Shown here: piece after piece, positions 4,438 through 49,287 of the stretch
How the letters are laid out: every line of letters starts with the position of its first letter
Position numbering within the stretch: position 1 is the first letter of the stretch
Source of the DNA: Antiquaquibacter soli
Lineage (GTDB): Bacteria; Actinomycetota; Actinomycetes; Actinomycetales; Microbacteriaceae
Assembly (NCBI RefSeq): GCF_030580675.1
Contig: NZ_JAUQUB010000003.1
Coordinates: 62,001-126,000 of the forward strand
DNA: 64,000 nt
Reading direction: 5' to 3'
The notes under the pieces: model-generated
The model's database searches: none
Seen by the model: the letters and a program-made list of their open reading frames with translations, nothing else
Told to the model about the DNA's origin: nothing
Made by a program: the position numbers and the translations under genes

Positions 4438-6729
4438 GTGACCCCCACCTCCGGTGCCGACACCGTTTCGAATGCCGCTGCGACCCCCGAGAAGGAGCAG
4501 CCGTTCGCGGCCCTCGGGTTGAAGCCCGACGAGTACGAGCTCATCAAGAGCATCCTCGGCCGACGCCCGACGAGCGGTGAGCTCGCCATGTACTCGGTGA
4601 TGTGGAGCGAGCACTGCTCCTACAAGAGCTCGAAGAAGTACCTGCGCCAGTTCGGCCAGAAGGTCTCCGAGAACATGAAGAAGAATCTCATGGTCGGCAT
4701 GGGCGAGAACGCGGGCGTCATCGACGTCGGCGAGGGCTGGGCGGTCACGTTCAAGATCGAGTCGCACAACCACCCGAGCTACATCGAGCCGTTCCAGGGC
4801 GCCGCCACCGGCGTGGGCGGCATCGTGCGCGACATCATCTCCATGGGCGCTCGCCCGGTTGCGGTGATGGATGCCCTCCGCTTCGGTCAGATCGACGACC
4901 CCGACACCGCGCGCGTCGTGCACGGAGTCGTGTCGGGCATCTCGTTCTACGGCAACTGCCTCGGCCTGCCGAACATCGGCGGGGAGACCTGGTTCGACCC
5001 GGTGTACCAGGCGAACCCGCTCGTCAACGCGCTCGCGGTCGGCGTCCTCCGTCACGAGGACCTGCACCTCGCGAACGCGCGCGGCGTGGGCAACAAGGTC
5101 GTGCTGTTCGGCGCCCGAACCGGTGGGGACGGCATCGGGGGCGCGAGCATCCTCGCGTCCGACAGCTTCTCCGAGGGCGGGCCGACGAAGCGCCCCGCGG
5201 TCCAGGTGGGCGACCCGTTCGCCGAGAAGGTGCTCATCGAGTGCTGCCTGGAACTCTTCGCGGGCGACCTCGTGGAGGGCATCCAGGATCTCGGCGCCGC
5301 CGGCATCTCGTGCGCGACGAGCGAGCTCGCCTCCAACGGCGACGGCGGCATGTTCATCGAGCTGGAGAAGGTGCTGCTGCGCGACCCGACCCTCACGGCC
5401 GAGGAGATCCTCATGTCGGAGAGCCAGGAGCGCATGATGGCGATCGTCACGCCGGAGAAGCTCGAGGGCTTCCTCGCGGTCACCGCCAAGTGGGATGTCG
5501 AGACGAGCGTGCTCGGCGAGGTCACCGACACCGGCCGCCTCATCATCAACTGGCACGGCGAAGAGATCGTCAACGTCGACCCGCGCACCGTCGCCGTCGA
5601 CGGCCCCGTCTACGACCGCCCGGTCGCCTACCCGGCGTGGCTGGATGCCCTGCAGGCCGACACCACGGCGAGCCTGCCGCGCTCCACCGACCTGCGCGCC
5701 GACACGCTGCGACTCGTCGGCAGCCCGAACCTCGCCGACAAGGCCTGGATCACCAACCAGTACGACCGCTACGTCATGGGCAACACGGCGCTGTCCTTCC
5801 CGGACGACGGCGGCATGGTGCGCGTCGACGAAGAGTCGGGTCTCGGCTTCGCGGTCGCCACCGACGCCAATGGCCGCTACTGCCAGCTCGACCCGTACCG
5901 CGGCGCGCAACTCGCTCTCGCGGAGGCGTACCGCAACGTCGCCGCCACCGGCGCGACGCCGGTCGCGGTGTCCGACTGCCTCAACTTCGGCTCGCCGGAG
6001 AACCCCGAGGTGATGTGGCAGTTCTCCCGCGCGGTGGAGGGGCTCGCCGACGGATGCCTCGAGCTCGAGATCCCGGTCACGGGCGGCAACGTGTCGTTCT
6101 ACAACCAGACCGGGGATGTGCCGATCCACCCGACCCCGGTGGTCGCGGTGCTCGGCACGATCGACGACGTGGCGCGCCGCATCCCGTCCGGCTGGCAGGA
6201 CGAGGGCGACAACATCTACCTGCTGGGCACCACGCGCGACGAGCTCGACGGCTCGGCGTGGGCGGGAGTCATCCACGACCACCTCGGCGGCGTGCCGCCG
6301 CTCGTCGACCTCGCCGGCGAGGCGTCCCTCGCGGGTCTCATCTCGGGCGGCGCGCAGGAGAGCCTCATCGCGTCCGCGCACGACCTCGCCGACGGCGGCC
6401 TCGCGACCGCGCTCGTCGACAGCGTGCTGCGCTTCGGCGTCGGTGCCCGCGTCTGGATCTCGGAGATCATGGAGCGCGACGGCGTGGATGCGACGGCGGC
6501 TCTGTTCAGCGAGTCGACGGGCCGGATGCTCGTGTCGGTGCCGCGCGAGGACGACGTGAAGTTCCGCGGACTGTGCGAGGGACGCGGGTACCCCGTGCTC
6601 CGCATCGGCGTCACCGAGAACTCGGGACAGCTCGAGCTGCAGGATCACTTCACGCTCTCGATCGACGAGCTGCGGGGGGCATCCCGTTCCACCCTCGCCG
6701 AGGCCTTCGGCCCCGTCGTCGGGTACTAG
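4438..6729 (+). CDS. purL: Phosphoribosylformylglycinamidine synthase subunit PurL
   Basis: A 763-residue small-type PurL, the synthetase that converts FGAR to FGAM with ATP and ammonia from PurQ. An ESHNHPSY segment at residues 108-115 carries the conserved active-site His; glycine-rich ATP-binding segments ([20 protein letters not shown]) and two tandem AIRS-like halves follow. The GTG at 4438 gives the family length; earlier in-frame starts would run into the promoter. It is separated from purSQ by two minus-strand genes, so it needs its own promoter. Confidence 0.95.
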
Positions 6730-6746
6730 GGCGGCGCGCCGCCGGT

Positions 6747-6804
6747 CGAGGTGAGACTTATCGGGGTTCAGGAGGCCACCGAAACCCCGGTTTCTCTCAC
6801 CTCG
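6747..6804. repeat. 58-bp palindromic repeat, copy 1
   Basis: The outer arms CGAGGTGAGA (6747-6756) and TCTCACCTCG (6795-6804) are exact complements. A nested stem CGGGGTT (6762-6768)/AACCCCG (6783-6789) encloses a 14-nt loop. The element is exactly 58 bp, the same as the copies at 7729 and 49230, and the inner GC blocks sit at the same offsets. It lies between purL and the VSR-like gene, upstream of that gene's start. Confidence 0.85.
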
Positions 6805-6860
6805 GCACGTGCTGGGGATAGCAGACGGCGTAAGTGGCGCGAGGGAGCCACAGTGACGGG

Positions 6861-7736
6861 ATGCCCCTACCCGACGAACTTGACCCCCGCGGATTCTCCG
6901 TTCGCGACGGCCTCCGCGCCGGACTGACCCCCGATCAGTTGCGCGCACGTCGCCTCGTGGCCCCGCACCGGGGCACCCGGTCGACCGCGGCGCCCTCGTC
7001 CGTCGAGGAGCGCGCGCACGCTCTCGCTCCTCTCCTGACCGTCGGCGACCGCTTCTCCCACACCACTGCCGCCCTGCTGCACGGGATGCGGCTGCCGTCC
7101 GGGCATCGGGAGGTAGCCATGCACCTCACCTCGACCCAGCGCCCGCGAGCGCCACAGATCGCGGGAGTGGCCGGGCACCGGTCGTCGGTAACCGAAACGG
7201 TCACGGTGGACGACCTCCCCGCGTCGTCGCCCGTGGTCGCGTGGGTGGAGTGCTCGAGCATCCTCGCTCTCGACGATCTCATCGTGATGGGCGATGGGCT
7301 CGTCCGGCGGCGAAGACCGCAGGCCACGATGCCCCTCCTTTCGGCGGCCGTCGAGGGGCATCGCGGTCGTCGAGGTTTCCGCAGTCTCGAGAAAGCGCTC
7401 GCGCACATCCGCCCGGGGACCGACTCTGCGAGAGAGACCGAACTGCGCCTGCTCGTTGTGCGAGCGGGCCTGCCGGAGCCCGAGGTCAACGGGGAGATCC
7501 GCAACGAGTTCGGCGTGCTGCTCGGCCATGGGGATCTCGTGTTCCGGCGCGAACGGGTGCTCCTGGAGTACGAAGGGCGCCAGCACACCGATCCTCGGCA
7601 GTTCGCCATCGACATCGAGCGCCTCGACGTGATCATGGCGGAGAGCTGGCGGGTCATGCGTGTCGACCGAGTGCTCTTCGCCGACAAACACCGCCTTCTC
7701 TCCCGCCTGCGCGCCGCTCTCACCAGACCGAGGTGA
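6861..7736 (+). CDS. AbiEi-like N-terminus plus VSR/DUF559-like endonuclease-fold protein
   Basis: A 291-residue protein (GTG 6834 is a 9-residue longer alternative). The N-terminal half resembles the AbiEi-type antitoxin-like domain common in actinobacteria (HTTAALLHG, RLPSG, then a beta-rich region). Residues 180-290 look like the VSR/DUF559 nuclease fold: E184, D215 (GHGDLVF), E226-Y-E228-G-R-Q-H232, D241, and WRVMRV. This pattern is compatible with an active PD-(D/E)XK-type site. No toxin partner sits beside it. It is bracketed by two copies of a 58-bp palindrome; the stop TGA lies inside the second copy. Function is unknown. Confidence 0.8.
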   Translation: MPLPDELDPRGFSVRDGLRAGLTPDQLRARRLVAPHRGTRSTAAPSSVEERAHALAPLLTVGDRFSHTTAALLHGMRLPSGHREVAMHLTSTQRPRAPQIAGVAGHRSSVTETVTVDDLPASSPVVAWVECSSILALDDLIVMGDGLVRRRRPQATMPLLSAAVEGHRGRRGFRSLEKALAHIRPGTDSARETELRLLVVRAGLPEPEVNGEIRNEFGVLLGHGDLVFRRERVLLEYEGRQHTDPRQFAIDIERLDVIMAESWRVMRVDRVLFADKHRLLSRLRAALTRPR

Positions 7737-7786
7737 GAGCAGTCGGGGTCCGCCGGGGCAGGCGACGCCCACCTTCCCTCACCTCG
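7729..7786. repeat. 58-bp palindromic repeat, copy 2
   Basis: The arms CGAGGTGAGA (7729-7738) and CTCACCTCG (7778-7786) pair over at least 9 bp. The CGGGGTC block starts 5 nt after the left arm, as in copy 1. The stop codon of the upstream gene (7734-7736) is formed by the left arm. It sits between convergent genes, so it could also serve as a bidirectional terminator. Confidence 0.8.
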
Positions 7787-7802
7787 ATGATCGGGCGGGG
7801 TG

Positions 7803-8681
7803 CTACTCCGGGGCGAGTATCCCCGGGCCGGGGGTGAGGGCGTTGCGCTCGGCGGCGGCCGTGGCGGCGCGGAGCGCCGTCACGAGCGTGGCCGGGGGCG
7901 GCGCCGCGTCGAGGGACGTGAGCAGGCCGGCGAAGAACGCGTCGCCGCTGCCGACGGGGTGGATGCCGCGGCGGGCGGGGGCGGAGGAGTGCACGGAGCC
8001 GTCGGATGACACGGCCGCCGCTCCGCGCACCCCGTCGGTGACGACGGCGCTACGGCGCGAGCCGCCGTACCCCGCGAGCGTGGCGGCGAGAGCCGCGGCA
8101 TCCGTTCCGCCGCCGACGAGGGCCGACGCCTCCGCGACGTTGACCTTCACGAGGTCGGCGAGGGGCAGCAGCCGCGCGAGCGCGTCGCCGTGGGTGTCGA
8201 GAGCAAGCTGCCACCCGCGGGACCGCAGCTGCTCGAGGAGGGACGCGAGCTCGTCGAGCGGGGCGCGCACCGAGCCGGAGAGCGCGAGCCATCCGGATCC
8301 GGTCACGGCGAGCGCGGCCGCCCCGACCGCGGCGAGCTCGGCCGAGGACAGCTCCGCGGCCGGCTCGTATAGGTCGGTGGACACCGGCGACGAACCGAGC
8401 GGGTCGACGATGATGTGGCACGAGCGAGTGGGCGCGTCGACGGGCACCACGCGCAGGTCAAGTCCGGGTACGGATGACGCGATCCACTCGCCCGACGAGC
8501 CGCCGAGCGGCGCGACCGCCGCCACGTCAGCGCCGAGCTGAAGCGCCGCGCGCGCCACGTTGAGCCCCTTGCCGCCCGGCACGCGCACAACGGACTCGGT
8601 GCGGTTGACCTCGCCGATCGCGAACCCCGGAACGAGGTAGGTGACGTCGACGCTCGGCGAGAGGGCCAGGCACAGGATCAC
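7803..8681 (-). CDS. PfkB family hexose kinase (1-phosphofructokinase type)
   Basis: A 292-residue ATP-dependent sugar kinase. The N-terminus (ILCLALSPSVD) and GGKGLNVARA segment match the FruK/LacC branch, and HPVGSGDAFFAGLL holds the catalytic Asp and anion hole. LacC-type enzymes phosphorylate tagatose-6-P or fructose-1-P. With the class II aldolase at 14764 and the SIS protein at 20673, a tagatose-6-phosphate kinase role is plausible but not shown. GTG start at 8681, overlapping the upstream gene by 4 nt. Last gene of the minus-strand run. Confidence 0.85.
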   Translation of the reverse strand: MILCLALSPSVDVTYLVPGFAIGEVNRTESVVRVPGGKGLNVARAALQLGADVAAVAPLGGSSGEWIASSVPGLDLRVVPVDAPTRSCHIIVDPLGSSPVSTDLYEPAAELSSAELAAVGAAALAVTGSGWLALSGSVRAPLDELASLLEQLRSRGWQLALDTHGDALARLLPLADLVKVNVAEASALVGGGTDAAALAATLAGYGGSRRSAVVTDGVRGAAAVSSDGSVHSSAPARRGIHPVGSGDAFFAGLLTSLDAAPPPATLVTALRAATAAAERNALTPGPGILAPE

Positions 8682-48421: not shown

Positions 48422-49237
48422 ATGACCACGCGCGAGACCGACGCCATCGCCGCCGAGCTGTACGGGCTTATCCCGACCGAGTTCACCGCGGCCCGCAACG
48501 CGGCGGCGAAGTCGCTCGAGCCCGCCGATCGCGCCGTCGTGATGGCGTTCCCCCGGCCGTCGGTGGCTGCGTGGGTCGTGAACCTGCTCGTGCGTCAGCG
48601 GCCCGATCAGATCGACCAGGTGCTCGAGCTGGGTGCGCAGCTGCGCGAGGCCCAGTCGGAACTCGACCGGGATGCCCTCGCCGAGCTCACTCGGCAGCGC
48701 CGCCAGCTTGTGGGCGCGCTCGCCCGCAACGGCGCGGCGCTCGCCGATGTGGCGGGCAAGCCCGTCTCGGACGCCGTCGTGGACGAGGTCGCCCAGACCC
48801 TGCAGGCCGGCATGTCGGACGCGGATGCCGCGGCCGCCGTCCGCAGCGGCGTACTCGTGCGCTCGCTCGAGGCCGTCGGGCTCTCCGTCGACCTCGAGGG
48901 GGCGGTCGCCGGCTCGCCGATCGAGCGGGCGCGGGTCGCTCCGGTCGACGAGCTCGAGGCGAAGCGCGCGCGAAAGCGGGCCGAAGACGAGGAGCGCCGC
49001 GCGGAGGCGCAGCGTGCGTTGGAGGCGGCGGAGTCGGCGCACGAGAAGGCGGAGCGCGTGGTCGCCGATGCGATCCGCGCGCGCGACGCGATCGCCGAGC
49101 GGGTGGATGACGCGGCCCGCACCCTCAAGGCACTGAAGGCCGAGCTCGCCGCCGCCGAGAAGGCGCTCAAGGCCGCGGCATCCACCCGCAACATCGCCGC
49201 CGACGCCGCGGATGCCGCTCGTCGCGGCGCGAGGTGA
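48422..49237 (+). CDS. Hypothetical protein with C-terminal coiled coil
   Basis: A 271-residue soluble protein. The N-terminal half is helical (IPTEFTAARNAAAKSLEPADRAVVMAFPRPSVAAWVVNLLVRQ). Residues 175-265 are highly charged, Ala/Glu/Arg-rich and heptad-like, predicting a long coiled coil. No catalytic motif or known family seen. The stop TGA (49235-49237) lies inside the left arm of the third 58-bp palindrome. Alone on its strand between rlmG-like and hspR genes. Confidence 0.75.
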   Translation: MTTRETDAIAAELYGLIPTEFTAARNAAAKSLEPADRAVVMAFPRPSVAAWVVNLLVRQRPDQIDQVLELGAQLREAQSELDRDALAELTRQRRQLVGALARNGAALADVAGKPVSDAVVDEVAQTLQAGMSDADAAAAVRSGVLVRSLEAVGLSVDLEGAVAGSPIERARVAPVDELEAKRARKRAEDEERRAEAQRALEAAESAHEKAERVVADAIRARDAIAERVDDAARTLKALKAELAAAEKALKAAASTRNIAADAADAARRGAR

Positions 49238-49287
49238 GAGAAGCCGGGCTCGACGGGCCGTCAGGCGCCCCGCCTATTCTCACCTCG
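49230..49287. repeat. 58-bp palindromic repeat, copy 3
   Basis: The arms CGAGGTGAGA (49230-49239) and TCTCACCTCG (49278-49287) are exact complements, as in copy 1. CGGGCTC begins 5 nt after the left arm at the same offset as CGGGGT(T/C) in the other copies. It also forms the upstream gene's stop codon and separates convergent genes. Confidence 0.85.

Follow-up and report, generated by a model that had tools for sequence, protein, structure and literature searches.

A predicted nuclease gene of Antiquaquibacter soli is bracketed by two copies of a palindrome, and many related actinobacterial genes have a matching repeat of their own, which suggests an enzyme-and-repeat partnership. The palindromes bracket their genes, are paired with them in a gene-specific manner, keep to a narrow range of lengths and are dispersed over the same genomes; the active site is conserved in the aligned family and the fold is predicted from a structure model. 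We consider it rather probable that the unit is a cognate pair, consisting of a sequence-specific nuclease and a ~58-bp palindrome that would act as a double half-site and be spread by cleavage and recombination. The window referred to below is the whole stretch of 64,000 nucleotides of A. soli DNA that was analysed.

Palindromes and predicted nuclease in the window

The two palindromes, each of exactly 58 bp, and the single gene enclosed by them were recovered where the original prediction had placed them (Table 1). The shared arms and inner GC blocks that it described were found as well: the outer arms are CGAGGTGAG(A)/(T)CTCACCTCG, with 10 and 9 perfect pairs, and the inner G+C blocks are similar. 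A third copy had not been part of that prediction. Folding of the single-stranded DNA gave z values of -4.85 for the upstream copy, -3.39 for the third copy and -1.93 for the downstream copy, which is therefore weak inside its arms. The window contains seven occurrences of CGAGGTGAG, six of them as arms, where 1.41 would be expected; a count of seven was reached in 0 of 100 shuffles. Across the whole 3.22-Mb genome there are three copies with exact arms, and a reversed control pattern found none. The neighbours of the nuclease gene are purL and a PfkB kinase gene, while those of the solitary copy include no nuclease matches. An Rfam search over 6400-8200 revealed no intron, all matches being under the gathering scores.

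Table 1 Positions of the palindromes and the enclosed gene in the window
Feature	Position	Strand	Remarks
Upstream palindrome	6747..6804	.	58 bp; 17 bp past the purL stop, 56 bp ahead of the ATG at 6861
Nuclease gene	6861..7736	+	291 aa; alternative GTG start at 6834 (6834-7736)
Downstream palindrome	7729..7786	.	58 bp; TGA stop of the nuclease gene (7734-7736) lies within the left arm
Third, solitary palindrome copy	49230..49287	.	between convergent genes; the gene before it ends at 49237, with its TGA stop within the left arm

The solitary copy and the gene before it, which has no Pfam match, occupy 48422-49287 between hspR and a methyltransferase gene, two genes that in many of the relatives examined seem to be directly consecutive. 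The hspR locus did not make a clean empty-site test, the gene at 48422-49237 being itself absent from many relatives. Just 3' of hspR a palindrome resembling ATCCCAAATACAGGAGA lies at the same place in two other genomes (L211 and L214, in G009 and G003); it is possibly a terminator or a member of a further repeat family.

Searched alone, the window protein had no Pfam, NCBIfam or PADLOC match at E ≤ 0.01, DUF559 being found at 0.071. The AbiEi-like N-terminus and DUF559/Vsr-like C-terminus of the original prediction thus fail for this protein by itself and stand by way of its relatives. Among 39 family members, matches at E ≤ 0.01 were obtained to MTES_1575 (PF18741) in 28, to DUF559 (PF04480) in 20 and to a PADLOC AbiEi model in up to 23. 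When five close relatives were scanned singly, DUF559 passed the cut-off (residues 225-293) and MTES_1575 did not, and AbiEi models matched best at about residues 13-141. No transposase family was among the Pfam matches of the window protein and the family members. From the relatives we assign the N-terminal half as AbiEi-like, and from relatives, profiles and predicted fold together the C-terminal domain as a probable Vsr-like/EDxHD nuclease. The names MTES_1575 and DUF559 describe domains only; the passages of PMC3710099 that deal with the MTES_1575 domain place it in a large HEPN-helicase protein and do not mention palindromes there.

In the 39-row alignment, from which four genes with stops in the span and then four more were left out, E192, D225, Y237, H242, D251 and R254 are invariant in all rows and residue 236 is E or D. 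If the protein starts at 6861, 10 must be added to the residue numbers originally given (D215, E226 and H232), which become D225, E236 and H242. The structure model has a mean pLDDT of 95.8. Foldseek returned no match at E < 0.001; its top four matches were mitoribosomal proteins, and the fifth was the catalytic domain of I-Bth0305I (probability 0.97, E = 0.22), an enzyme that we take to be Vsr-like. A profile search of PDB sequences pointed to 3hrl (E = 0.0028) and weakly to I-Bth0305I (E = 0.032). The conserved residues have the same order, E-D-x-H-D, as in I-Bth0305I, which we presume to be the residues behind the name EDxHD. Searches of phages and plasmids found 1 and 5 records respectively, every one below 60% identity. 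The target on which I-Bth0305I forms a dimer is given as nearly 60 bp in the part of a review that treats it (PMC3943268), which is close to the 58-bp length of the palindrome.

Matched flanks and dispersed copies in other genomes

Homologues of the window gene bear palindromes of their own, often on both sides, with an arm that is common to the two sides and differs from gene to gene, e.g. CGAGTGTTCCGA (L007, L178), GCGAGTTCCGCCCC (L008), GAGGTGACGCAAAC (L131) and GAGACCTCCACTTC (L181). The window's own arm was sought beside the paralogues and was absent, a negative check that was misleading because the paralogues have their own arms. We scored each gene by the best stretch shared between ~220 bp upstream and ~220 bp downstream of it. 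Forty-seven homologues of the genus were examined and 46 were scored, one being skipped for a short flank. The mean flank score was 28.6 within genes and 11.6 between genes, 33 of the 46 genes lay above the 99th percentile (22) of the between-gene scores, and the observed sum was reached in 0 of 10,000 permutations. A sample of the phylum comprised 197 genomes, of which 32 (A. soli included) have homologues at E ≤ 1e-25. We examined 69 of its 111 matches, chosen for their higher rank or because they had a locus; the genome of the window itself supplied one. Of the 69, 46 exceeded the 99th percentile (17) of mismatched pairings, again with 0 of 10,000 permutations. Below threshold were 13 of the 46 genus genes and 23 of the 69 genes of the phylum sample.

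The window gene is among those 13: it scores 18 against the threshold of 22, so that its pair is one of the weaker ones, and its own partner ranks 2 of 46. Control ORFs (73, from six 20-kb stretches) had a mean score of 11.1 and a maximum of 25, and scores of 17-25 are therefore not decisive singly. A strict palindrome was present on both sides of 15/46 genus genes, 9/69 genes of the phylum sample and 1/74 control ORFs, and on at least one side of 34/46, 33/69 and 10/74, respectively. In four genes (L006, L135, L136 and L137) one flank has a palindrome and the other has nothing that matches it. The original prediction had counted occurrence of the gene in relatives without flanking copies against itself; the exact 58-mer arms are indeed in none of the other 26 genus genomes, but the relatives have matched flanks of their own in the proportions given above, so that for most of them the outcome favours the prediction.

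A further homologue in the A. soli genome was detected by profile on contig C7, around 329265-329951, with a flank score of 35 (L309). Four of the 47 homologues look broken, with stops in the span (L142, L143, L186 and L187); all of them except L143 keep palindromes on one or both sides, and those that do look like decaying units.

The palindromes vary little in length. From GAG to CTC they measure 55 or 56 bp in 30 of 36 elements (18 genes anchored on both sides), although 44-70 bp was accepted. Among the flanking copies found, those downstream begin at a median of -1 bp relative to the stop (25 genus genes), and those upstream are usually some 45-90 bp ahead of the gene. In 15 Arthrobacter copies the frequency of the major base is 0.85-0.93 in the arms against 0.63 in the centre; these copies were found by similarity, one having exact arms, and their frame was set by the arm match, which favours the arms. 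When arms were re-paired 5000 times, the match within a copy proved better than that between copies for G009 (7-8 of 5000) and G027 (0 of 5000), marginally so for A. soli (175-224 of 5000) and not for G029. Both a hairpin form and the existence of subfamilies would fit this matching within copies.

Besides flanking the nuclease genes, the palindromes occur as dispersed copies. Counted by exact arms in 27 genomes of the genus, the window family has its three copies in one genome, and the GAGTGTTCCGA..TCGGAACACTC family has 14 copies in A. soli (G000) and 13 in G009 and is absent from the remaining 25; these two genomes are the ones in which the nuclease has this palindrome on either side. The TGCCAAATGG..CCATTTGGCA family has five copies, all in G003, two of which flank its nuclease. 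Diverged copies exist besides these. All 27 copies of the GAGTGTTCCGA..TCGGAACACTC family are 56 bp between the searched ends, the search having allowed 47-72 bp, and 58 bp with the flanking CG that is present in most of the copies examined. Of 41 solitary copies, some of which are orthologous pairs, 38 are outside the genes predicted by a simple GC3 method, 17 lie between convergent genes and 3 between divergent genes. The repeats are nevertheless not unlinked from the gene family, in agreement with the original prediction, for all three families tested by exact arms are confined to genomes with the cognate nuclease. The six control stretches themselves held four solitary palindromes, which by their arms belong to the families of nucleases present in those genomes (L189, L190).

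Copies of the GAGTGTTCCGA family in A. soli (L194-L208, L365-L370) fall into subfamilies by their inner arms, of the TTTGGTCG and AAAGTGCCGC types. Mixed copies with one arm of each subfamily also occur and look as if half-sites recombine.

Outside the genus, a 57-bp CGAGGTGAG family is represented in three Arthrobacter genomes, by 5, 6 and 2 copies that are exact and by diverged ones, and in two of these genomes (G027 and G029) the nuclease gene is bracketed by this family. The same pattern gives 5 and 3 matches in two Plantibacter genomes (G030 and G031), with the family length in 4 and 2. Plantibacter loci L083, L114, L158, L159, L168, L169 and L172 carry a CGAGGTGAGGC..GCCTCACCTCG family of 57-bp palindromes; a profile search of the examined Plantibacter palindrome loci, and of these loci alone, found no nuclease. 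Scanning genome contigs with the arm pattern gave at least 116 matches. Exact arms were rejected as a general signature, as many arm pairs among the matches listed have no inner complementarity by eye. Two loci among the 116 matches listed (L063 and L096) hold a homologue (profile E ≤ 1e-3), in both cases beside the palindrome.

Orthologous cassettes at a fixed locus

The flanks of the cassettes align between species, and many cassettes are therefore at the same syntenic place. One such place, locus A, lies between two genes that end there, convergently as judged by the stop codons seen. Seven of the 27 genus genomes hold an orthologous nuclease at locus A, with six types of palindrome, the upstream one matching the downstream one in each. 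Flank scores range from 19 to 64 and six of the seven are above threshold; L149 (19) is below it, and the downstream element of L150 is imperfect. Eighteen of the other 20 genomes are without the cassette and have just 8 to 206 bp at this place, G020 has 186 bp with the remnant of half a palindrome, and G019 has 714 bp of other sequence. The mean identity of the nuclease is 56%, compared with 77% and 86% for its two neighbours, and in all 21 of the 21 pairs the nuclease is less conserved than either neighbour.

The distance between two proteins is correlated with that between their palindromes (Mantel r = 0.32, 0 of 5000, 26 genes with GAG-anchored elements, three dropped by hand). A windowed correlation along the protein, seeking a specificity region, gave no window that stands out (r 0.14-0.29). 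Since palindromes differ among orthologous nucleases at a fixed locus, a resident co-evolving pair is likelier than a freely jumping element, and the sequence comparison makes the unit look more like the former.

Solitary copies were compared between genomes as well. Two of 13 solitary exact copies in A. soli (G000) are at a place that matches a G009 copy, as judged by the left flanks; the right flank is unmatched at one of these sites and displaced by ~1.5 kb at the other. The outer arms are the same at both. The inner arms are distinct at L208/L374, and at L368/L373 one G000 inner arm is close to the G009 type. With two of 13 sites shared, one of them having such an arm, homogenisation is not clean. 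The solitary Arthrobacter palindrome L160 was uninformative as an empty-site test, as the corresponding place in the related G027 holds an apparent IS3-type insertion (L316).

A probable cognate pair, its alternatives and its counterparts

If nuclease and palindrome are a cognate pair, a dimer of the enzyme would recognise the two outer arms at a fixed spacing, and the centre would not be read. Two copies of its site would bracket the nuclease gene and up to about a dozen would lie between other genes. The enzyme may nick or cut the palindrome, or its hairpin or cruciform form, and repair or rejoining with other copies would then spread new copies and make those of one genome alike. Because copies would be both spread and homogenised by the enzyme, a new enzyme specificity would drag the palindrome population along. 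Dimer binding, cleavage, the spreading or movement of copies and any benefit to the host are what we infer here. Against the cognate pair speak the low copy numbers (three in the window family), the genes below threshold or with a palindrome on one side, and the lack of an evident target-site duplication in the edges listed. The imperfect homogenisation, the uneven matching of arms within copies and the lack of a Foldseek match at E < 0.001 count against it as well.

The palindromes might instead be regulatory, bound by the N-terminal half as operators or bidirectional terminators that insulate the nuclease gene and other genes, while the nuclease domain acts elsewhere. Their position at gene ends, seen in the median offset of -1 bp between stop and downstream copy for the 25 genus genes, agrees with this, as do the 38 of 41 solitary copies clear of predicted genes, the 17 of 41 between convergent genes and the resemblance of the N-terminal half to AbiEi antitoxins. 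We judge it unlikely, however: ordinary terminators do not need a gene-specific sequence common to both flanks, each of the three families tested occurs solely in genomes that have the cognate nuclease, and binding by itself would leave the origin of the dispersed copies to be explained. Even so, the palindromes could serve as terminators or operators in addition to being nuclease sites. We give rather less credit to a plain mobile element, that is, a palindrome-gene-palindrome transposon of which the solitary palindromes are remnants after gene loss, like solo LTRs. Such an element would account for the absence of the cassette from locus A in 18 of 27 genomes, for the half-palindrome remnant in G020 and for the four of 47 homologues that look broken. 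In seven genomes, however, the cassette keeps one syntenic place and differs in its palindromes, as in vertical inheritance, and about a dozen solitary copies per nuclease would need many gene losses. Compared with a transposon having terminal inverted repeats, the cassette is at the same place in several species and missing from others, and no target-site duplication was evident by eye in the edges listed.

An action on RNA, with the palindromes as mRNA hairpins that the Vsr-like domain binds or cuts, seems to us highly improbable. It draws on the many copies near 3' ends of genes, on the mitoribosomal proteins at the top of the Foldseek matches and on a paper that by its title concerns the Vsr-like protein FASTKD4 and mRNA stability (PMC11879112), but the upstream flanking copy usually stands some 45-90 bp before the gene, the symmetry and narrow length range also suit a DNA dimer site, and the E-D-x-H-D residues are conserved in 39/39 members. 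Chance, or ordinary intrinsic terminators next to an unrelated gene, is the least credible reading of all. The window pair taken by itself would allow it, being weak (flank score 18, rank 2 of 46) and having a downstream palindrome that folds weakly; for the family, chance is excluded by the permutations and controls.

A cognate pair of nuclease and palindrome thus remains our preferred reading, and its closest counterpart among known systems is the REPIN-RAYT pair. As described in the parts of PMC2817692 concerned with them, RAYT genes are always flanked by two inverted REPs, co-evolve with them and outpace their neighbours in evolution, and REPs are typically present in more than 100 copies; REPINs are pairs with conserved ends and a spacer, in the account given in part of PMC3116915. 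The likeness extends to one gene between two palindromic repeats of the same family (the window gene, 33/46 and 46/69 genes, the rest being below threshold), to cognate repeats dispersed extragenically in the same genome, and to conserved ends with a variable spacer at a set distance (compare passages of PMC2817692 and PMC3116915). Gene and repeats co-evolve in both, the gene being faster than its neighbours, a rate that comes here from one locus, and in both orthologues stay put while the flanking repeats change (same passages of PMC2817692 and PMC3116915). The differences lie in the enzyme, which here is a probable Vsr-like/EDxHD nuclease and not an HUH/Y1 (IS200/IS605-type) transposase, in the repeats, many of which end in CGAG without a GTAG or CGTC tag, in the copy number, with 3 to 14 exact-arm copies per searched genus genome against more than 100, and in the actinobacterial host. 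GTAG or CGTC are the REP tags given in the relevant part of PMC3733652, where the phyla named do not include actinobacteria. As the organisational features are shared and the enzymatic one is not, the unit would work like a REPIN-RAYT pair without being one, and the original prediction of an analogous palindrome-plus-nuclease unit with another nuclease fold is supported by the sequence comparisons and the model.

More tentatively, and with somewhat less than even confidence, we propose an independently evolved actinobacterial counterpart of REPIN-RAYT, in which dimeric Vsr-fold nucleases would maintain and propagate private populations of ~58-bp palindromes by cutting and forced repair from other copies. 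It would be a miniature resident gene-drive, the specificity of enzyme and site switching jointly and the gene staying at one locus during species divergence.

Other known systems resemble the unit in single respects. In homing, the element itself interrupts the site that its enzyme cuts. I-Bth0305I is alike in the predicted fold, the weak profile match and the residue order, but here target-like sites bracket the gene and occur elsewhere, and no Rfam intron was found around it. The gene of an EDxHD homing endonuclease lies in an intron or in the very site cut by its enzyme, and the occupied site is thereby immune; the window gene has housekeeping genes as neighbours and a target-like palindrome on either side. 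The antitoxin AbiEi of type IV toxin-antitoxin systems is matched by PADLOC models in relatives and not in the window protein, and no gene for an AbiEii nucleotidyltransferase toxin lies beside the window gene, whose neighbours are purL and the PfkB gene.

A search of the open-access literature with a few terms found no published account of such a palindrome-nuclease unit, which is weak evidence of novelty. If the cognate pair is true, bacteria evolved at least two such partnerships between a resident nuclease and extragenic palindromes of its own, starting from unrelated enzymes; the arrangement would then be a strategy of general use in bacteria and not one peculiar to HUH transposases. Many pairs of enzyme and site, narrow in geometry and variable in the sequence of the arms, are available here in nature, so that the question of what keeps REP-like repeats in genomes can be put to the test by exchanging enzymes and sites. 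Many actinobacterial genes that are now known just by their similarity to DUF559 or AbiEi would also gain a role.
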